Of a stretch of 64,000 bases of DNA, positions 44,590-55,720 are shown piece by piece. The notes beneath the pieces were generated by a model. It ran no database searches. It was not told the DNA's origin and saw nothing but the letters and a program-made list of their open reading frames with translations. Within the stretch, counting starts at the first letter, position 1; every line of letters begins with the position of its first letter. A program made the translations under genes and the position numbers. Where the stretch lies: IMG/VR virus record IMGVR_UViG_3300026097_000009, positions 90,862-154,861 of that record, one strand, 5' to 3'. The DNA is from a virus.

Positions 44590-44871
44590 TCAATACCACC
44601 CCATTGCTCTACCAAAACCGAATATGTTAACAATTGCAAAGTAGAAAGTTAACAGCATGATCCATGCCGCACCTCTACGCCAACTTGCGTAAACCTGTGT
44701 AATTGCACCAATAAAGAAATTAGGATAAACAAATCTCATATCGGGATCGTCGGCATTTATTGCGAGATACAAACTTGCAATAACTGTAAAAACAAAACTA
44801 ACAAGTTCAAATCCAAATGCTACACGATCTGATTGATAACTGTTGATCCAAAAATCTTTAACAGTTTGCAT
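44590..44871 (-). CDS. Small membrane protein, three hydrophobic segments
   Basis: 93 residues from ATG 44871 (overlapping the QueE stop as TGATG); a start 12 bases earlier is possible. Hydrophobic segments: VAFGFELVSFVFTVIASLYLA, YPNFFIGAITQVYASW, AAWIMLLTFYFAIVNIFGFGRAMGWY (about residues 15-35, 47-62, 68-92). Short acidic loop ADDPDMR between the first two. It is probably an inner-membrane protein. Its position directly after QueE might indicate a transport or precursor role, but this is unproven. No RBS-like AGGAG; GTGGGG lies upstream. Confidence 0.6.
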   Translation of the reverse strand: MQTVKDFWINSYQSDRVAFGFELVSFVFTVIASLYLAINADDPDMRFVYPNFFIGAITQVYASWRRGAAWIMLLTFYFAIVNIFGFGRAMGWY

Positions 44872-45719
44872 CAAGTGCCCCACTCATTCTTAAACAACGG
44901 CACTTGTAGTCTATCTGAATACCTAACACCGTTTGCCATAGCAAGTTCCGCTACACGGCGGTTGTTAAGCTCGTAGACACCTTCTGTGCCACCTACAGGC
45001 ATCAAATACACAGGCCCTGTAAACCCTTCCGCACGATAAATGTCTGCGGCTTCTAGTGCTTCCTCTGCATCTTCTTCTGTAGCAACTACAAACTTCAAAT
45101 ATGTATAACCCGCTTCTTCATACTCGCATACGATATCAGGGCGAATAGCTTCACTGGAATCTTCACCACTACAACTAAGTTTAGCACTTACTGAAAATGT
45201 AACTTCTCTATCATCTCGCTGTGCCGTCCACGACCTCAAATACCGTTTAAAGTCTGCGTGTAACTTCTGGGTACCATTTGTTTCAAATGTAATCTCTTTA
45301 AGCAGTTGCATACTTTCGTTATCCAGTAAGTCAGGATATGCTCTCTGCCATCCTAACAACGGCTCACCGCCTGTGATTACAAGATGCTCATCTTCCCAGC
45401 CATCCCCTGGCAACAATTCACAGATGCGATCAGCAATGCCATCTGTTTCCATCATAGGTGAAAGATGTTTAAATCTTGGATCCCACGAAGCATAACTGTC
45501 ACAGCCTGTTGCCACAATAGGCAACTCTTCATATGTGCTATACTTGTCAATGTCTTTTGCGATAACGTCGTGTGCTGTGCTAGATTCGCCTTTAGGCATA
45601 TTAAAGCCACTACAGGTAAAGTTACACCCGAATGTACGCAAGAAAATACTAGGCACGCCCATATAGCGGCCTTCGCCTTGAATGCTGTAAAACAGCTCTG
45701 CTATTTTAATTTTGCTCAT
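44871..45719 (-). CDS. queE: QueE, 7-carboxy-7-deazaguanine synthase
   Basis: 282 residues. Radical SAM enzyme turning 6-carboxy-tetrahydropterin into 7-carboxy-7-deazaguanine. N-terminal FYSIQGEGRYMGVPSIFLRTFGCNFTC is the QueE family signature; HLVITGGEPLL near 118 is the SAM-binding motif; PVYLMPVGG near 238 is conserved. The cysteine motif is unusual: C32-x3-C36 is present, but position 39 is Phe, and the next Cys is C73 (GCDSYASW), giving C-x3-C-x36-C. Other QueE proteins are known to have extended cluster loops, so this is probably the third ligand. It overlaps or abuts neighbours on both sides. With FolE and QueD-like genes in the same run it forms the deazaguanine path. Confidence 0.85.
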   Translation of the reverse strand: MSKIKIAELFYSIQGEGRYMGVPSIFLRTFGCNFTCSGFNMPKGESSTAHDVIAKDIDKYSTYEELPIVATGCDSYASWDPRFKHLSPMMETDGIADRICELLPGDGWEDEHLVITGGEPLLGWQRAYPDLLDNESMQLLKEITFETNGTQKLHADFKRYLRSWTAQRDDREVTFSVSAKLSCSGEDSSEAIRPDIVCEYEEAGYTYLKFVVATEEDAEEALEAADIYRAEGFTGPVYLMPVGGTEGVYELNNRRVAELAMANGVRYSDRLQVPLFKNEWGT

Positions 45720-46721: not shown

Positions 46722-47094
46722 ATATCACATCCCCTATTTCATCTGTGTTTACTTGATCCTTTTTGTAGTTGCCCTTCTCGGGGATAACGTGTCGAACACC
46801 GCCTCGTGGATCCTTCATATCGCCTGCCCTTCGTGGAATAAGATGAACGTGTGGATACATAACAGTCTGTCCAGCACTTTCGCCGTGATTAACTCCAACA
46901 TTAAATCCATCGCAATACCCTGCGAGAACAAGTTCCTGGCCGTGCTTGTATGCTTCTACAAGACATTTTCCGACAAGTTCAAACTCGTCTTCTCGAGGAA
47001 CAAACAATAAATGTCCTTCTGTTACAGGATATCCGTCATTGTAAACTGTAAAATCGTCTTCTTCCCAAACTACATCAGTCCAAGGTCCGTTCAT
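46705..47094 (-). CDS. HIT-family hydrolase, degenerate triad
   Basis: 129 residues from ATG 47094 (overlaps the upstream stop as ATGA); a start at 47127 adds 11 residues. HIT fold: VVWEEDDFTVYNDGYPVTEGHLLFVPRE then GFNVGVNHGESAGQTVMYPHVHLIPRR. In the H-x-H-x-H triad the first His is Tyr80; H82 and H84 remain, and H82 aligns with the nucleophilic middle His. Members act on nucleoside phosphoramidates or dinucleotides. The PRTase beside it and the nucleotide pathway genes nearby fit a nucleotide role, but the substrate is unknown. Confidence 0.75.
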   Translation of the reverse strand: MNGPWTDVVWEEDDFTVYNDGYPVTEGHLLFVPREDEFELVGKCLVEAYKHGQELVLAGYCDGFNVGVNHGESAGQTVMYPHVHLIPRRAGDMKDPRGGVRHVIPEKGNYKKDQVNTDEIGDVIYGDGC

Positions 47095-47591
47095 TGTCCT
47101 ACATTCTCCCAGGGATATACAAGCCAAACGTCTTCTTCGGCTTTGTTAACTTCGTGTGTGTAATAGTTTACACCGTCAAACTCTGAACTTAGGTTTTCTG
47201 TGATAACAGCAAAGCGAACATTATCGCCCCATACAGTTTCCGCACCGTTGTATACACTGCTGTGCCAATCCTGTTTGATCCAGTTGAATGTAGCCCCAGT
47301 GTCGTTAATGTCATCCACGATGAGAATTTTTTTCTGTGCAGTCTCGTCACTGCCAAATGCATCTTCAGCCATCCAGCAGTTTGTTTCACACTGATCACCG
47401 TCTCTTAGACTTATTTTAAGGGCCTCTCCGCGGATTCCTAGCATATTGCTTAGTATGGTAGCAGGGACATTGCCACCGCGTGTAATACCTACAATGTAGT
47501 CAGGACGCCACGCATCTTTGTACATTTGTAGTGCGATGTTTACGCAGGCTGTCTCTACATCCTGCCAACTATAATAATGTTTCTTAATCAT
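47091..47591 (-). CDS. Purine-type phosphoribosyltransferase
   Basis: 166 residues. PRTase fold: YIVGITRGGNVPATILSNMLG for the first core strand and loop, KILIVDDINDTGAT at residues 88-101 for the PRPP-binding loop (acidic pair D93-D94), and YPWEN at the end, as in Gpt (xanthine-guanine PRTase) which ends in VPWE-like segments. It could provide GMP from guanine and so feed the FolE GTP route, but the base preference cannot be read. ATGA overlap with the HIT gene and a small overlap with the next. Confidence 0.75.
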   Translation of the reverse strand: MIKKHYYSWQDVETACVNIALQMYKDAWRPDYIVGITRGGNVPATILSNMLGIRGEALKISLRDGDQCETNCWMAEDAFGSDETAQKKILIVDDINDTGATFNWIKQDWHSSVYNGAETVWGDNVRFAVITENLSSEFDGVNYYTHEVNKAEEDVWLVYPWENVGQ

Positions 47592-48429: not shown

Positions 48430-48602
48430 TAGTCTAAATCCTTGTACTCTACTACAACACCATTCTCTCCCCAAATTTTAGCTTGTTTTTCTGCTTCTTC
48501 TCTTGAGTCGTGTAAAACAATTTCAAGCCCATCGGGACCTTCTTTCGTCACAAATATCCAATCATCGTCCGGCATTGGAACTTTTACTGCATATTTAGGC
48601 AC
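48429..48602 (-). CDS. 57-residue small protein, GTG start
   Basis: A short frame from GTG 48602, overlapping the end of the glycosylase gene by 8 bases, to TAA at 48429, whose last base is the A of the next ATG. Product begins PKYAVKVPMPDDDWIFV with an alternative ATG at residue 9, then SREEAEKQAKIWGE and VVVEYKDLD. The beta-alpha-beta character with PDDDWIFV resembles small conserved proteins of marine T4-like phages. The end-to-end overlap with both neighbours supports expression. Confidence 0.65.
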   Translation of the reverse strand: MPKYAVKVPMPDDDWIFVTKEGPDGLEIVLHDSREEAEKQAKIWGENGVVVEYKDLD

Positions 48603-48987
48603 AGAGTTCTTCCTTGATATATCTTTTTAGTTCTTTATCTTCTACATCTGCTGGGATATCATTTTGATAAAAGATTCTGTAACTGTCTGAACCGTATTTT
48701 CCAATACCGCACAGATCCAAAGCATCTTTCTTGTCCCAGTTAATATATTGTAAACTCATTTTCCAGATACGTCTAGCTCTTACATTTTGCATACCGAGCG
48801 GTTCTAATTGTTCTGCGATTTCGTCTACAGTGGCATACAGCAACAGTCCTGCCGTAGGCCAACGCTCAAAAAATTCTGTGAGCACAGGCTTTGTTTGCCG
48901 TCTGTCAACTTGGTTAAGGCAAATGACACCAACCATGTGTTGCCATTCGCACTCAACTTGCTGTTGTACCATTAGTTCGTCTTTCAT
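48595..48987 (-). CDS. MBD4-like HhH-GPD DNA glycosylase
   Basis: 130 residues, only the catalytic domain. The HhH-GPD order is VGVICLNQVDRRQTKPVLTEF, AGLLLYATVDEIAEQLEPLG, NVRARRIWKMSLQYI, LCGIGKYGSDSYRIFY, and the C-terminal VEDKELKRY. The last two match human MBD4 (ELHGIGKYGNDSYRIF and PEDHKLNKY) residue for residue at the key places: D117 aligns with MBD4 D560, the catalytic Asp. MBD4 removes T or U opposite G. In a phage this could repair deaminated bases, remove a modified base, or act on host DNA. It overlaps the small GTG gene. Confidence 0.8.
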   Translation of the reverse strand: MKDELMVQQQVECEWQHMVGVICLNQVDRRQTKPVLTEFFERWPTAGLLLYATVDEIAEQLEPLGMQNVRARRIWKMSLQYINWDKKDALDLCGIGKYGSDSYRIFYQNDIPADVEDKELKRYIKEELCA

Positions 48988-49587
48988 TTAAATTTCTGCC
49001 TTACAATTAAATGCAATTGTGATTCTTTCACGCTCGCCTTTATGTTCATTTACGCCGTGTTCAAAGTAACTAGGAAAAATATAAAGCCTGCCTGTTTTAG
49101 TTTCGCATTGCATCGATTTTGCAGTATATTGATTTTCACCGGTTTTGTAATGCCAGGGCCAGTTTGAATCTTTGTTTTTGTCTAAGAATTCAATCGGACT
49201 GCTATCTTCGTCTGACTGAACATAAAAAACCCCACTCCATAAATTAGGAAGATGGTTGTGAGATCCATGCCAGCTATTTTTTTCTCCAACAGTAGCCCAG
49301 CTATCGGAAATATAAACTTTTCCTTTAAGTTGAACTGTGTTATGAACTGTCTGCACCATATCAACAATAAAATTTTTAATTTTTTCTAGCTCTTCATGAT
49401 CTAAGAAATTTTGCAGAGTGCGGTATGTTGTAAACCCGTGACCTTTATAGTTTCCGTCATTTACTTCTTTATATAACAAAATACGTTCGATAATCTCTTT
49501 TTGAATTTCGTCGGGCAAGTCAAAATCGCACCAGAAAAGCCCGGCAGGAAAGCAATCATGCCTAAACAATTCTAGTTTGTCTGTCAT
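48988..49587 (-). CDS. 2OG-Fe(II) oxygenase
   Basis: 199 residues from ATG 49587 (overlapping the small membrane peptide stop as ATGA). DSWATVGEKNSWHGSHNHLPNLWSGVFYV contains the H-x-H iron pair (H110, H112 in WHGSHNHLP), and FPSYFEHGVNEHKGERERITIAFN supplies the distal His (H177) and the Arg that binds 2-oxoglutarate (R188). This matches the 2OG-FeII_Oxy_5 type. Substrate unknown. It is in the same run as FolE, QueD-like, DpdA-like and a GT-B glycosyltransferase, so a nucleobase or sugar target is possible. Confidence 0.8.
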   Translation of the reverse strand: MTDKLELFRHDCFPAGLFWCDFDLPDEIQKEIIERILLYKEVNDGNYKGHGFTTYRTLQNFLDHEELEKIKNFIVDMVQTVHNTVQLKGKVYISDSWATVGEKNSWHGSHNHLPNLWSGVFYVQSDEDSSPIEFLDKNKDSNWPWHYKTGENQYTAKSMQCETKTGRLYIFPSYFEHGVNEHKGERERITIAFNCKAEI

Positions 49588-49685
49588 AGTAAAAAGTCCT
49601 GCACAAATCCTAGTACTCCTAATGCTAGAGCACAAACTAATAAACCTTTTGCCATATTAACAGCAACAATATCTAAATCATTCAT
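49584..49685 (-). CDS. 33-residue membrane peptide
   Basis: ATG 49685 overlaps the FolE stop (ATGA), and the stop overlaps the next ATG (ATGA). Product MNDLDIVAVNMAKGLLVCAL followed by hydrophobic ALGVLGFVQDFLL: one transmembrane helix of about 18-20 residues. The double coupling argues for real translation. A similar short hydrophobic gene next to FolE occurs in marine T4-like phages in my memory. Function unknown. Confidence 0.65.
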   Translation of the reverse strand: MNDLDIVAVNMAKGLLVCALALGVLGFVQDFLL

Positions 49686-50380
49686 CGTGGTGCAAACTCC
49701 TGTTGTAGTTTGATATTGTCAAAAAACTCTTTCTTTGTTCCTGCGTCATCTTTAAACGCACCTTTCAGCACAGTTGTCTGTGTAAGACTGCTATGTGCCA
49801 TAATGCCACGATTTTCGCAACAACCATGCACCGCCTGGACATACACACCTACGTTTTCGCTACCAGTAGCTCGCATAATTTCACGAGCAATGTCATTACA
49901 CAGTTCTTCTTGTAGTGTGCCACGTCGAGCACACCACTGTGCAATGCGAGTATACTTAGATAATCCAATCAGTGTATCTGCGGCAATAATACCAATATAT
50001 GCTACACCTGTAACAGGCTGGTGATGATGACTACACATGCTTTTAAGTTCGCTTCGAACCACAAGCATGCCTTCATATTTTTCATTGGTAATGTCATCTG
50101 GCTCGTTAGGGAATGCTGTAGCATCCGGACGATAGTCATAGCGTCCTGCCATGATCTCATTAAAGTACATCTTAGCCAGTCGACGTGCTGTACCTTTTGA
50201 GTTAGGATCTGTGTGTCGATCGATGATCAGTGTGTCTAGTACAGTTTCAAATGCTTCTGTAGCTTCGTCGATCAATTGTTCTTTGTCGCCGCTTTGTAGC
50301 AAGCGAGCAATGTTGTCGCCAGCCCAGTAACGCTTGTCTGCATTTTTACAGCGTTCGATAATTTCTTCGTATTTCTTCAT
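49682..50380 (-). CDS. folE: FolE, GTP cyclohydrolase I
   Basis: 232 residues. First step of the deazaguanine route: GTP to dihydroneopterin triphosphate. Zinc residues are C116 and H119 in ELKSMCSHHHQP and C187 in AVHGCCENRG. The family landmarks TDPNSKGTARRLAKMYFNEIMAG, GVAYIGIIAADTLIGLSKYTRI and RGTLQEELCNDIAREI are all present. Complete in length. It starts a sub-run (FolE, small peptide, 2OG oxygenase, glycosylase), coupled by ATGA overlap, after a 35-base gap. Confidence 0.92.
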   Translation of the reverse strand: MKKYEEIIERCKNADKRYWAGDNIARLLQSGDKEQLIDEATEAFETVLDTLIIDRHTDPNSKGTARRLAKMYFNEIMAGRYDYRPDATAFPNEPDDITNEKYEGMLVVRSELKSMCSHHHQPVTGVAYIGIIAADTLIGLSKYTRIAQWCARRGTLQEELCNDIAREIMRATGSENVGVYVQAVHGCCENRGIMAHSSLTQTTVLKGAFKDDAGTKKEFFDNIKLQQEFAPR

Positions 50381-50415: not shown

Positions 50416-51507
50416 TTATTTTAAATTATTTAGAAGGTTTTCGCAACTGAAATAATTTTTCTTAAGTATATCTACCTGTTTATTTAGGCTAGGAAGATAA
50501 GAATCATAATTTTCTACATAGTCTTGAACACGAGCAACAACCTTGTCTCTGTTTGCTTTATAAGCCGCAAAGTCCTCTGTCCATTCTGAAGGGTATTTAA
50601 AATCGTCCACAGCCATTTCTGTATAGCTTAATCTATCAGGAACCATAGGAATAGTATCTACTAATGCTCCTTCGTACCAACTAATACCCAATGTTTCTTG
50701 TAAGTTAGCTGAGAACACAAGTTTAGCACGACCTAGCAAGTTGTGATATTCATTCTTTGTAAGTTGTTGATCCTGACAAACTACAAATTCGTATTGTGGA
50801 AGCTGTTCTTTTAAATCACGGAATATATCAACTTGTTTTTCAGGAGCGATACGATGCGGGAACAACACAATATCTTCCTTGGGCATGCCTTTATACAGTG
50901 TGAACATATCATCCATGTATTCCATAGGCCAGCCTGTTTTTACAATTCTTCCGTTTTCTTTTAAGGCAGTTATTGTTTGATTCGCCCATGGCATATTTTC
51001 ATTGCTTGCAAAAACCATAGTGTCTGCAAACATGTTAATATGAAAGTTAGTAGCAAAGTAGTTGTGATGCGCGGCAGCAAAAAACGATTTTTCAGCATGT
51101 CTTACCCACGGAGCATCTCCAATCAGTCTGCCTAAAAAGTCTTGAGGATCATAACTACCAGCATGCCACAATGCGTGAATTCTTACGCCAATGCCAAGTA
51201 GCTCTGCCATATAACGTAAGTTAATAATGCCAGGATGCCAAGCATCAGTAAAAATAAAATGATCGCCGCTGGCAACGTCCCCGGCTGTGAATAGTCTAGA
51301 GATCTTTTCAACCTGCGAAGCTTTGTAGATATTAGTACCACCAAAGTTAAGAAACGCACCTGGAGTAGTAGCAGATGGTATGTCAGTTGGACCTTCAATA
51401 ACTTCAACATCAAACCCTTTATTACGAAGCAGTACAGGCAAGTGGGTTTTCCACTCGCCTGTGTATCTTGTTTCTACTGCCTCAATGTCAACAATAAAAA
51501 CTTTCAT
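50416..51507 (-). CDS. GT-B glycosyltransferase
   Basis: 363 residues. A GT-B fold with the GT4-type pattern near the C-terminal half: VLFPHRIAPEKQVDIFRDL, then ETLGISWYEGALVDTIPMVPDRLSYTEM with the conserved E-x7-E. The N-terminal half begins VFIVDIEAVETRYTGEW with HFIFTDAWHPG and LWHAGSYDP. Sugar donor and acceptor unknown. It is placed between FolE and the QueD-like gene, four bases overlapping the small gene before it. Possible targets are a modified DNA base or cell-surface sugars; the first would be novel and is only inferred from context. Confidence 0.75.
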   Translation of the reverse strand: MKVFIVDIEAVETRYTGEWKTHLPVLLRNKGFDVEVIEGPTDIPSATTPGAFLNFGGTNIYKASQVEKISRLFTAGDVASGDHFIFTDAWHPGIINLRYMAELLGIGVRIHALWHAGSYDPQDFLGRLIGDAPWVRHAEKSFFAAAHHNYFATNFHINMFADTMVFASNENMPWANQTITALKENGRIVKTGWPMEYMDDMFTLYKGMPKEDIVLFPHRIAPEKQVDIFRDLKEQLPQYEFVVCQDQQLTKNEYHNLLGRAKLVFSANLQETLGISWYEGALVDTIPMVPDRLSYTEMAVDDFKYPSEWTEDFAAYKANRDKVVARVQDYVENYDSYLPSLNKQVDILKKNYFSCENLLNNLK

Positions 51508-51722: not shown

Positions 51723-52127
51723 TTAATATTTGATGAATGATCCATTTTCTCCGTCTTCGGAGACCTCAATCCAAACCTCACGGCCTGGGTATTGCTCTAC
51801 AATTTGCTGATGTAATTCATCAGAAATCATTTCGCAACTCTTGTGATTCAGTTCCAATATGGAAGTTGAATGGTCAACTTCTTCATAGAGACGTTGCAAC
51901 CAACGCTTGAACTGAATAAACTCAATGTCTCGATCGTCGTGAAACACTTCGATCCAAACTTTAAACTTGAAAATGTGTCTGTGTAGATAACCAAGGAAAC
52001 TTACATCGTCCCAATCACCTGTTGCCAGTTTGGGATCAGTGTCTGCACCTGGATAGTAATGAACTCCTTCCTTGTCGAAAGTCACCCAAATCATTTTCTT
52101 AGGACGAGTGTCTTGTTTAATAATCAT
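51723..52127 (-). CDS. queD: QueD-like 6-carboxytetrahydropterin synthase homologue
   Basis: 134 residues. Pterin-binding T-fold: H23 in GVHYYPGA and H49-R-H51 in LGYLHRHIF give the three Zn ligands of QueD/PTPS; ELNHKSCEMISDELHQQI and WIEVSEDGENGSFIKY provide the second His and the Glu that anchors the pterin. The Cys normally found about five residues before H-x-H is absent (SFLGYLHRH), though one Cys is at KSCE, so the catalytic mode may differ. In the pathway it would turn the FolE product into the substrate of QueE. Overlaps the nuclease-like gene by four bases. Confidence 0.72.
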   Translation of the reverse strand: MIIKQDTRPKKMIWVTFDKEGVHYYPGADTDPKLATGDWDDVSFLGYLHRHIFKFKVWIEVFHDDRDIEFIQFKRWLQRLYEEVDHSTSILELNHKSCEMISDELHQQIVEQYPGREVWIEVSEDGENGSFIKY

Positions 52128-52720
52128 AAGCCTTCAAATAAATTCCTTCTGGTAGTTTTAGTTCTTGATAGTGATTCAAATTCTTTCATAGCTTTATTGC
52201 TGATTCTATATCTATATGATCCTTCACTAACATAACCGTCTAGTACAGCGGTTTTACAATCGCTGGTGATATTTTTTCGTGTGTCGCCGTTTAGAATTTT
52301 ATCTCGAAGATTGTCGTATGCCTTTTCTAATTGTTCTTGTATTTCTGGCAAATCTAAATCGATACAAGTAGCGCCAACTACTTCATCAAAATCCGCATCC
52401 CATTCTACAGTATTTCGATTAAGTGTCTTTTTATAATATCTGGTTTTGTACCAGTTTTTTGTATTTTTGATATCTTTCACAGTCATTGATCCGGTGTTAT
52501 GAGCGGCTTTGCTACCACGCTTTCTTGTTTTATTTTCCACACCTTCAATTGGTAAATCAACATCGCCAAATTTATCAATGCTATATCCGTTTTCTAACAA
52601 TGTATCGTCGACCCACCTTCCTACATCACCGTCATTTTTAGGACTCGGAATTTGATCACCTACTTTTACATTGTTCTTGAGAGTTTTTACCCTATAAGTT
52701 TGTTTTTGGTATTCGGTCAT
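52124..52720 (-). CDS. Putative PD-(D/E)XK nuclease, MutH/Sau3AI-like motif
   Basis: 198 residues. The N-terminal region NDGDVGRWVDDTLLENGYSI (about 29-48) resembles the MutH/Sau3AI G-x-V-G-x-x-x-E opening, and D55-L-P-x4-E62-N-K64 (VDLPIEGVENKTR) matches the MutH D-x6-E-x-K catalytic set with the same 7-residue spacing as MutH D70/E77/K79. The rest is helical and basic, with the C-terminus TKTTRRNLF. MutH and Sau3AI cut at GATC. The gene lies between QueD-like and DpdA-like genes. The nuclease call is from motif spacing only; the first acidic residue is D38/D39 instead of Glu. Confidence 0.55.
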   Translation of the reverse strand: MTEYQKQTYRVKTLKNNVKVGDQIPSPKNDGDVGRWVDDTLLENGYSIDKFGDVDLPIEGVENKTRKRGSKAAHNTGSMTVKDIKNTKNWYKTRYYKKTLNRNTVEWDADFDEVVGATCIDLDLPEIQEQLEKAYDNLRDKILNGDTRKNITSDCKTAVLDGYVSEGSYRYRISNKAMKEFESLSRTKTTRRNLFEGL

Positions 52721-53229
52721 TTTAAAACCTCATCGCCTTTGTATTTTTCCCAAGGTGTGAAAACATTTGTATCCATTAGATCGTGCAGTCGATGACACCA
52801 TACACCTGGATTGCTTGCACGAAAATCTTTGTCGTCGATCTTGATCATTGTGTTGTAGTTCCACTGACCGATGTAAGGCAGTGGCACACGAATCTGCGGA
52901 ATAAAATAGTCGGATTCAGTGAGAGGACCTTCTAGAAACTGTTCTGCATAACTGATTGGAATATCCAGTGTGCAGAGATAGTCCTCATTGAGAAAGTCCA
53001 TGATCATGGCTTCCCAAGAATCCCAGTCGTCAAATGACTTGGGGTTGAAACTGTGATTCGCACCAAAGAAGATGTGTTCAATGCCTTCACAGTGTTCGAG
53101 GATTTCTGCAGTGTCCTGTATGCCTGTGACAAACAGTGTTCTCATACCGTATGCCGGAGTCTTTTCAACTTCGATGCCTCGGAAGAACACTACGTCTTCT
53201 GCAACGCCAGATTCATAATCTCTTTTCAT
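52717..53229 (-). CDS. Conserved phage protein, unknown
   Basis: 170 residues. KRDYESGVAEDVVFFRGIEVEKTPAYGMRTLFVTGIQD, HIFFGANHSFNP, LCTLDIPI, and PYIGQWNYNTMIKIDDKDFRASNPGVWCHRLHDLMDTNVFTPWEKY. I recall the same protein from marine T4-like phages; function unknown. DDKDFRASNPGVWCH is well defined, suggesting a compact fold, and W-C-H-x-L-H-D-L may form a metal or catalytic site. Four-base overlaps on both sides place it in the nuclease/DpdA run. Confidence 0.55.
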   Translation of the reverse strand: MKRDYESGVAEDVVFFRGIEVEKTPAYGMRTLFVTGIQDTAEILEHCEGIEHIFFGANHSFNPKSFDDWDSWEAMIMDFLNEDYLCTLDIPISYAEQFLEGPLTESDYFIPQIRVPLPYIGQWNYNTMIKIDDKDFRASNPGVWCHRLHDLMDTNVFTPWEKYKGDEVLK

Positions 53230-53435
53230 TCGTTATCCAAATCCATAACTTCGTGGGTTTGTTCGTGTTGCTGTTTATACAGTTTAGCAAGTTCGTCTTT
53301 AAGATGCAACCTCTTTTTCTTTTTTTCTGTCAACCCTAAATCATCGAAAGCTTGACCTTTTTCAATACGATCTATTTCTTTATTTAGGTATGCGTGTGTT
53401 TCTTCTAAAAATTTGATTCTATCTGCCAATGTCAT
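53226..53435 (-). CDS. Small coiled-coil protein, unknown
   Basis: 69 residues, one long charged helix: LADRIKFLEETHAYLNKEIDRIEKGQ, then EKKKKRLHLKDELAKLYKQQHEQTHE. Resembles YdcH/DUF465-type coiled coils in composition. Starts one base before the DpdA-like stop. Could be a partner for it or the 170-residue protein, based only on position. Confidence 0.5.
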   Translation of the reverse strand: MTLADRIKFLEETHAYLNKEIDRIEKGQAFDDLGLTEKKKKRLHLKDELAKLYKQQHEQTHEVMDLDNE

Positions 53436-54986
53436 TTACTTCTCCTTAAGAGATTCCTCTAATCTATCAAGTTCTAGATCTTCACGATCATCTGTCCACG
53501 GCTCTTCTTCTTCGCCTTCGTCGTTGACTTCGACAAACATGCGATTATACTCATTTGTCACACCGCCACGCAAACGAGCACCTTCTAGATCTTTTAAGAA
53601 ACTGTCTGCTTCTTTGATCATTGCAAATGCAGATTCTTTAGAATCACAGTCAAACAGTTCTTCCACAAACCGATCAAAGTATAGAATGTTGCGTGGTACC
53701 CAATCTGAATACTCATCACTCTTGTCTGCTTGCTTGACTTTCTTCCACTGTCTCCAATCTGGCTGTGCTTTTGCACGTTCAATATCCATTAGATTGTTAG
53801 CACGTTGTACTGCTACAATATGGCAGTATACATTGTGATTCATCATAAGTGCGTATGCAAACGAATCCCACGATGTTTTACCTTCCTTGCCGATCTTGTT
53901 AAGCATACCGGGTGCATAGTGACAGATATCAGCAACGGTTAATCGTCTGCCAATTTCTGACTCGAACGGGAATGGAATATCGTGTCGTTCTGCAAGTGCC
54001 TTGTTATCCGGAGCTTTGTCCATAATAACCGCCCAACGCTTTGCACTGTGCTGTGCATTAGTGTATACCAGTCCATGTGCTGTTGCAATAAACGGAGAAG
54101 CACAATCGAAACTGATAGTGAAGTTTTCATTCACATGCTTGCGAACTTGACGCTGAATAGAAGTTAAGTAGCACGACCAATCAAGTTGTGCAGTACCTAG
54201 GAAGTGCATCCAATCCTTGCCTTCCAGCATGCCGTCGAACTTCATGGTGATCAATCTTCGCAGTGTAATAGGCATCTTGCACATATTAGCACCGCCCATT
54301 GCCCAACCTTCGCAGGCCTTATCACCCCATACTGAAGGATCTGAAAACTCTTTAACACCTTCATACCACTCTTCCGCAGTTTCCCAATCCGAACCTTGCA
54401 AGACATTTAGGAACTTAGTTTGGCCTAATCTGCGCTCTAACCAGTATTTGTTGTTGAAGCGAGTCTTTTCCAAGCAATCTTCAAAACTCTTTAATCCAGT
54501 TTTCGGACTGTGAATATGATCGCATGCCCAAGTCGGAACATCAAGCGTCATTGACCAATCCGCCGTAAGTTCAAGCCAATTGAGGATTTTGTCACGAGTC
54601 TTGTTTGCTTCTGGGCCTTCAAAGTTTAACCAATCAAACTTGAGAATGCCTTTACCTACCTGATATCCGCCGGAGTCTCCTAAGATCATCGAAGTTGATC
54701 GATCTCTGTCGTGGATCATTGCATCTTGCACAAGACTTTTCTGTAAATCTAATTGTGCATGACCTGCAGAATACAACCCGTAGTCGTAAGTAAAATAGCC
54801 CTGTTCTTTGTTTAGAAAGTTCATGCCTTCAATACCACGATCAAACCCTTGAGGAATACGATCAGTGGGCACAAATTCTTCCTGCCTTTGCTTTGCAATG
54901 TATGTGCTAAAGAAACTGCTAATAGCAGGCAAATACACAGCATAGTCTTTCTGTAATGGTGTAAGATTTACTGGTGGATTCTTCAT
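53436..54986 (-). CDS. dpdA: DpdA-like DNA/tRNA guanine transglycosylase
   Basis: 516 residues. TGT-like TIM barrel: ILGDSGGYQVG (D104, the general catalytic Asp), TLDVPT near 148, FLNVLQGSD near 192, GWAMGG near 227, HFLGTAQLDW near 261, and FTISFDCASPF (D294, the nucleophile). Length and a long acidic C-terminal tail (EDLELDRLEESLKEK) are unlike tRNA TGTs; this fits the phage DpdA type, which exchanges guanine in DNA for a 7-deazaguanine. It overlaps the clamp-like gene by four bases. It could act on tRNA instead, so the DNA role is an inference from family and from co-transcribed FolE/QueD/QueE. Confidence 0.82.
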   Translation of the reverse strand: MKNPPVNLTPLQKDYAVYLPAISSFFSTYIAKQRQEEFVPTDRIPQGFDRGIEGMNFLNKEQGYFTYDYGLYSAGHAQLDLQKSLVQDAMIHDRDRSTSMILGDSGGYQVGKGILKFDWLNFEGPEANKTRDKILNWLELTADWSMTLDVPTWACDHIHSPKTGLKSFEDCLEKTRFNNKYWLERRLGQTKFLNVLQGSDWETAEEWYEGVKEFSDPSVWGDKACEGWAMGGANMCKMPITLRRLITMKFDGMLEGKDWMHFLGTAQLDWSCYLTSIQRQVRKHVNENFTISFDCASPFIATAHGLVYTNAQHSAKRWAVIMDKAPDNKALAERHDIPFPFESEIGRRLTVADICHYAPGMLNKIGKEGKTSWDSFAYALMMNHNVYCHIVAVQRANNLMDIERAKAQPDWRQWKKVKQADKSDEYSDWVPRNILYFDRFVEELFDCDSKESAFAMIKEADSFLKDLEGARLRGGVTNEYNRMFVEVNDEGEEEEPWTDDREDLELDRLEESLKEK

Positions 54987-55720
54987 GATGCCTGCGCTGG
55001 AATAATGTATTTGTAGTTTGCCAATCCTGAATCTAGTGTGATCTGGATTGCACCTTCGTTTGATAAACTCATTTTTGTGTTGTTTACATCAGCAATTTTA
55101 AGAATTGCAAGAATTTGTGATACAGGCCAAGCCCATCCTTTATCCATTTTGCCATCTACGCCCATTGCAAATACAAATTCGCCGCCGTGTGTGCTTGCAT
55201 CTCCAAACACAAACTTTAAGTTGCCGTCTTCTGTTTTAGCAACAAACGTAGGATGTTCAGAGTTTGCACCTGCCTGGAAGTTAAAACGCTGTACTGCCGC
55301 AACACTAGGCTCGATTTCTACATCCCAGTTTACACCACGGAACTTCACAGTCTTCATCTTTTCGTTGATGATTTCTTGATTCATAAAGCGATAATCGTTT
55401 TTAAAATCACCTGCCGCATTTTCGAAGTGAATCCCAACAGGAATGTCAACACCGTTGCGTTCTGCATTTTTGATTGTGATCTTTGCGTCTTCTTTGTACT
55501 CAGCACCGTCTAGCAGATACTTCAGCTTTTGCAGTGCAGGCATACCGAACACACCCATCATATCCGGGTAAGTGTTGTGTGTTTCTGCTTCCATAATGAC
55601 AGAACGATCGTCTGCCATAGAGTTGAACACAGTCTTGTCTTCCGAACCTGTGACCTTTACGGTTGTAAGGAAACCAAGATTCTGTGTGTGATTTACAATG
55701 TCTTGTAAGATGTCTTTCAT
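54983..55720 (-). CDS. Sliding-clamp-like protein (gp45-like candidate)
   Basis: 245 residues. Two similar halves with beta-strand alternation, for example VFGMPALQKLKYLL and NDYRFMNQEIINEKMKTVKFRG, ending LDSGLANYKYIIPA, as in PCNA/gp45-type clamps. Location between the DNA polymerase and DpdA-like genes fits a polymerase clamp. Sequence identity with T4 gp45 is not obvious and the length is a little greater than T4 gp45 (228). A promoter candidate and a 36-base gap precede it. Confidence 0.5.
   Translation of the reverse strand: MKDILQDIVNHTQNLGFLTTVKVTGSEDKTVFNSMADDRSVIMEAETHNTYPDMMGVFGMPALQKLKYLLDGAEYKEDAKITIKNAERNGVDIPVGIHFENAAGDFKNDYRFMNQEIINEKMKTVKFRGVNWDVEIEPSVAAVQRFNFQAGANSEHPTFVAKTEDGNLKFVFGDASTHGGEFVFAMGVDGKMDKGWAWPVSQILAILKIADVNNTKMSLSNEGAIQITLDSGLANYKYIIPAQAS

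Follow-up and report, generated by a model that had tools for sequence, protein, structure and literature searches.

The window analysed here is a 64-kb stretch of DNA that forms the terminal part of a 154,861-base viral record. An intact open reading frame with an ATG start at 52124..52720 on the minus strand encodes a candidate endonuclease of the MutH/Sau3AI fold (198 amino acids), which we call NUC. The gene lies in a co-directional series in the order DNA polymerase, putative sliding clamp, DpdA, o69, o170, NUC, o134, o69b, GT363 and FolE, with QueE located farther away. Overlaps of 4 bp (ATGA) join the clamp to DpdA, o69 to o170, o170 to NUC and NUC to o134, and DpdA and o69 abut. The original prediction had placed the nuclease candidate in a DpdA operon, and the co-directional, mostly overlapping arrangement from the clamp to o134 agrees with this.

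The gene at 53436..54986 (minus strand) encodes a 516 amino acid DpdA-like DNA guanine transglycosylase of the TGT superfamily, recognised by its TGT-like motifs and by hhalign. No Pfam, NCBIfam or PHROGs model matched it above noise. A profile of the DpdA family aligned to Escherichia coli TGT (hhalign E 0.003) across the LNVLQG, GWAMGG and FDCASPF motifs, and the LGDSGG motif is retained. DpdA is predicted to insert a deazaguanine mark into DNA. Members of this DpdA-like family are annotated as "hypothetical protein" in the Pseudomonas jumbo phages PA5oct, Paride and others, and in the Sinorhizobium phage Phosso.

Three further minus-strand genes are candidates for synthesis of the base. FolE (49682..50380; Pfam E 1.3e-37) is a GTP cyclohydrolase I, the first step in deazaguanine synthesis. 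A QueE-like radical SAM 7-carboxy-7-deazaguanine synthase is encoded at 44871..45719 (NCBIfam QueE E 1.8e-13, under the curated cut-off). The o134 protein (51723..52127) is a QueD-like candidate that matches phrog_17812; its hhalign match to E. coli QueD (E 0.011) is weaker than that of DpdA to TGT, and Pfam PTPS had zero matches across the record. QueC was sought in the record and none was found; possible marks are therefore 7-carboxy-7-deazaguanine and, with the help of a host QueC, preQ0, judging from the pathway described in PMC6884629.

The remaining genes of the operon are less readily assigned. The o69 gene (53226..53435, minus strand) encodes a small DUF465 protein, and o170 (52717..53229, minus strand) a conserved protein with no assigned function, on either side of which NUC homologues occur. 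The 245 amino acid protein at 54983..55720 (minus strand) was read by eye as a DNA polymerase sliding clamp from its size and its adjacency to the polymerase; library searches with it gave no match, and it is a member of a conserved block. GT363 (50416..51507, minus strand) is a weakly glycosyltransferase-like protein of 363 amino acids that is conserved and nearly always found downstream in the DpdA operon, and it might further decorate the modified base. The same operon encodes a short HhH-GPD DNA glycosylase-like protein (48595-48987; Pfam E 1.5e-6), whose substrate could be deazaguanine or a mismatched base. A xanthine phosphoribosyltransferase-like protein (47091-47591; NCBIfam E 3.4e-13) and, by eye only, a 2-oxoglutarate oxygenase look-alike (48988-49635) are encoded in the same gene block.

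Predicted fold and active site of NUC

The original prediction had pointed to a VG-x3-DD motif followed by D55-x6-E62-x-K64, and these residues are found in the 52124-52720 frame (V33-G34-x3-D38-D39 for the first motif). Taken alone, D-x6-E-x-K is weak evidence, as it occurs in 12.5% of shuffled NUC sequences and in 4 of the 46 open reading frames of the window. The full pattern occurs in 0.005% of shuffles, a number that is only indicative because the pattern was picked post hoc. Since the short motif is common by chance, its conservation across homologues serves as a non-circular test.

Single-protein searches with NUC of Pfam, PHROGs, PDB sequences and annotated phages returned no match, and a search of IMG/VR returned two contigs, L001, which is identical, and L002, a sister with 95% identity. 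We used the neighbouring proteins o134 and o170 as queries, which yielded 160 related loci in which NUC homologues with 25-47% identity were then spotted. We then scanned 2.9 million viral contigs without regard to context, with profiles built for three NUC subfamilies together with a pattern of 9 residues. The family comprises 45 distinct homologues with 20-47% identity (except the one 95% sister) on approximately 64 viral contigs, counted as contig names; two members were added later beyond the 45. No homologue was found in bacterial genomes scanned with two NUC patterns, or in plasmids searched with the NUC of locus L213. A structural match in BFVD is a protein of a S-CAM7 phage; a search of an S-CAM7 isolate gave no match. 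PADLOC models scanned against the operon proteins gave no match. The NUC family is new: in Pfam, PHROGs and PADLOC, the model libraries used here, it stays under every cut-off.

D-x6-[ED]-x-K is conserved in all 45 distinct homologues, and G34, D55, K64, K98, R172 and F195 are invariant columns in an alignment of 34 sequences. AlphaFold2 modelled NUC with a pLDDT of 86.8 and a pTM of 0.83 from a 19-sequence alignment; homologues were needed, as the pLDDT was 33 without an alignment. The closest PDB structures to this model in Foldseek were complexes of MutH with DNA (2aor, E 5e-5, probability 1.00; 2aoq, E 1e-4, probability 1.00), followed by Sau3AI (4pxg, E 0.012, probability 0.97). Nothing apart from MutH and Sau3AI exceeded a probability of 0.25. 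An hhalign comparison with E. coli MutH gave an E of 0.0017 with a low probability column (15%), one side being a single sequence, and placed D38, D55, E62, K64 and K98 of NUC in register with E56, D70, E77, K79 and K116 of MutH. The E56- and E77-equivalent positions are E or D in the family, and L125 has Q at the E56 position. The window NUC itself had no match to Pfam MutH (PF02976). Six of the 19 members had sub-threshold matches to this model at the same place (best E 0.004), those scored singly giving 15-17 bits against a cut-off of 23, and none of the 19 reached the curated cut-off.

The structure prediction that the original prediction had proposed as a check therefore gave a PD-(D/E)XK fold with MutH as the best match, and AlphaFold2, Foldseek, hhalign and the weak Pfam MutH matches bear out the assignment of NUC as a MutH/Sau3AI-like nuclease. 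We consider a MutH/Sau3AI fold with an intact active site to be computationally established with high confidence. D38, D55, E62, K64 and K98 are the predicted catalytic residues, and R172 may, judging from topology, be the counterpart of the base-reading arginine of MutH. The replacement of E62 by D in part of the family would suit a DNA-binding remnant that is inactive as a nuclease, but the motif also accepts D there and all catalytic positions are conserved across 20-47% identity, and we find this explanation barely credible.

Because the closest fold is that of MutH, a nickase that requires MutL, NUC could alternatively nick the phage's own DNA during repair, recombination or replication. 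However, searches of the 154.9-kb record, which is possibly incomplete, for MutL, MutS, Dam and N6 or N4 methyltransferases found none (host proteins could serve), and NUC is missing from most close relatives. A role in the phage's own DNA transactions is therefore very unlikely.

Distribution, exchange and selection of NUC

The region is visible in 61 contigs, and in each of them NUC adjoins DpdA, in either the DpdA-o170 gap or the o170-o134 gap; two further contigs begin too late for the arrangement to be seen and are not among the 61. The sole exception is L213, where NUC starts 3 bp past the open reading frame of an N6-methyltransferase, which itself follows three Eco57I-type methyltransferase genes. 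The L213 NUC is nested within the family tree (98/99 support). Every NUC context found includes a DNA-modifying enzyme, so nuclease and modification gene are linked, as is required of a restriction-modification-like pair. The L213 contig (L213:1-10552) holds three tandem Eco57I-type N6-methyltransferase paralogues, a truncated fourth and the MutH-fold nuclease, and it also encodes two large Vsr-like/DUF7487-type proteins that resemble mobile endonucleases.

NUC is an optional gene. It was present in 9 and in 13 members of two sets of 80 best relatives, and most such DpdA operons are without it, which counts against a pairing of nuclease and mark. Comparison of the window with L085 showed a precise presence/absence of 593 bp between the ATGA overlaps. 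Intact empty sites of this kind are expected of a homing endonuclease, and NUC could be a free-standing MutH-fold member of that class. It would then cut NUC-less o170/o134 alleles when relatives infect the same cell and be copied into them during repair, without benefiting the phage. The gene has also been exchanged among phages with very different DpdA proteins: NUC identity does not follow DpdA identity (rho 0.20), with extremes of 84% NUC identity beside 42% for DpdA and of 21% beside 80%. The low correlation gives no sign of fine co-adaptation between NUC and DpdA. The GC content of NUC is below that of DpdA in 38 of 38 loci, which also speaks for homing. An HNH endonuclease, a further point for homing, fills the equivalent o170-o134 slot in two loci (L063:3585-4001 and L090:4525-4959) and NUC slots elsewhere carry unrelated cargo, so the location of NUC could reflect hitch-hiking in a variable slot.

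The identity around NUC also seemed to favour homing. The window and L002 share 95% identity over 1.35 kb around NUC in a background of 78%. In a control comparison, however, L085 and L005, both without NUC, had equally high identity at o134. Between the window (51723-52127) and L005 (L005:4001-4396), o134 has 94% DNA identity and the neighbouring genes only ~57-60%. Among 137 loci, o134 swaps involved 41 pairs in which both loci lack NUC, 33 in which one carries it and 2 in which both do, against expected shares of 53, 40 and 7%, so the swaps are not enriched in NUC-carrying pairs. We dropped the island, which had been the strongest sign of homing, as NUC-less phages show it too. Co-conversion of flanks that could be attributed to the gene was not seen, islands being equally frequent without NUC. 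o134 is a strong general recombination hotspot independent of NUC, and NUC rides along with it.

Other properties of NUC also depart from those of a homing parasite. Omega values of 0.06-0.30 show strong purifying selection on the gene. Decayed copies were not seen, the sole partial one ending at a contig end; omega values near 0.1 and the lack of decay are unlike the degeneration cycle of such parasites. Approximately two slot changes were counted on the tree, compared with 12 in shuffles. Each genome has one copy of NUC or none, with no spread to other sites in phages of up to 236 kb. The single locus outside the DpdA operon places NUC beside methyltransferases. We consider homing without benefit to the phage unlikely, although it is the most serious of the alternatives.

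NUC and the predicted deazaguanine mark

Deazaguanine in phage DNA is a shield against host restriction. If NUC respects the mark, deazaguanine would also be a licence to attack unmarked DNA. That NUC cleaves DNA, which site it reads (GATC or a related one), that the mark blocks it and what it targets in the cell are all inferred. GATC occurs 307 times in the 64-kb window, against 299 expected, and is neither avoided nor enriched. A GATC-cutting NUC would thus need some form of self-protection; the count excludes only the combination of an unprotected genome and a GATC cutter. Counts of GATC and other palindromes did not differ between loci with and without NUC, although these loci overlap and are not independent.

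Deazaguanine-marked DNA of phages 9g and Rosebush resists BamHI, which recognises GGATCC (PMC6884629, PMC5567051), and the cytosine-specific endonucleases of T4 spare T4 hydroxymethylcytosine (HMC) DNA (PMC6071114). The unavoided GATC sites that would need protection, the blocking of BamHI by such marks and the T4 precedent favour a restriction-like reading. By analogy with these cases, we see about an even chance that NUC is the restriction half of a phage restriction-modification-like pair that spares deazaguanine-marked DNA. The 7-deazaguanine base would be made by the phage FolE, QueD-like and QueE proteins and exchanged into phage DNA by DpdA. NUC would then cut or nick its site only where it holds ordinary guanine, attacking host DNA and unmarked rival phage DNA and sparing the phage's own. 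A likely physical explanation is recognition of guanine by MutH-type enzymes through the major groove, in which a 7-deaza substituent would remove N7 and add bulk. In other phages with DpdA, the measured deazaguanine is often only ~30% of G (PMC6884629), and this would give protection only if the NUC site is covered by the mark.

The suggestion in the original prediction that unmodified host GATC sites are cut while DpdA protects those of the phage is plausible and fits this context. Host DNA and the DNA of rival phages are equally good candidate targets of NUC. A narrower alternative is superinfection exclusion, in which NUC acts mainly against rival phages and plasmids in the same cell, with deazaguanine as the sign of self and host degradation incidental. 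The anatomy of the locus would be identical, and optional, horizontally exchanged cargo is typical of genes for competition between phages. However, no evidence separates this from host-DNA degradation, and most related phages would bear an identical mark. We therefore regard a mainly rival-directed NUC as rather improbable. The restriction-like pair can be put more broadly as a phage self/non-self system in which the 7-deazaguanine inserted by DpdA identifies self and a nuclease of MutH fold does the cutting, carried by large phages as an exchangeable cassette with possibly lineage-specific sites. This fuller version is a real possibility that we hold slightly less firmly than the pairing itself. 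A purified NUC member might serve as a reagent that senses deazaguanine in DNA.

Comparison with known systems

NUC shares its predicted fold, the D-x6-E-x-K spacing and five catalytic equivalents with MutH (PF02976) of E. coli mismatch repair. The two are 12-14% identical in structural alignment, NUC falls under the Pfam cut-off and, unlike MutH, it is located in a deazaguanine operon. Like free-standing phage homing endonucleases (HNH, GIY-YIG and PD-(D/E)XK), NUC is optional, AT-rich and exchanged between conserved genes; unlike them, it is undecayed, restricted to a single locus and always beside a DNA-modification gene, and the identity island does not depend on it. Sau3AI, a type II enzyme that cuts GATC, has a fold in common with NUC and the restriction role that we propose for it. 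The Sau3AI chain has 466 residues, whereas NUC is a single short domain, and Sau3AI pairs with a methyltransferase, whereas the partner of NUC would be a base-exchange enzyme.

Bacterial dpd islands (DpdA-K) couple a DpdA-based guanine mark to restriction. The mark would likewise be DpdA-based here, in combination with one small phage nuclease that has no PADLOC match. The proposed likeness to T4 endonucleases II and IV (denA and denB) is one of strategy, with the phage's own DNA marked and its nucleases specific for ordinary DNA. The T4 mark is HMC, whereas deazaguanine and a MutH-type fold are predicted here. If our reading is correct, NUC and DpdA would be an independent counterpart of the T4 hydroxymethylcytosine strategy that uses another base and another fold.
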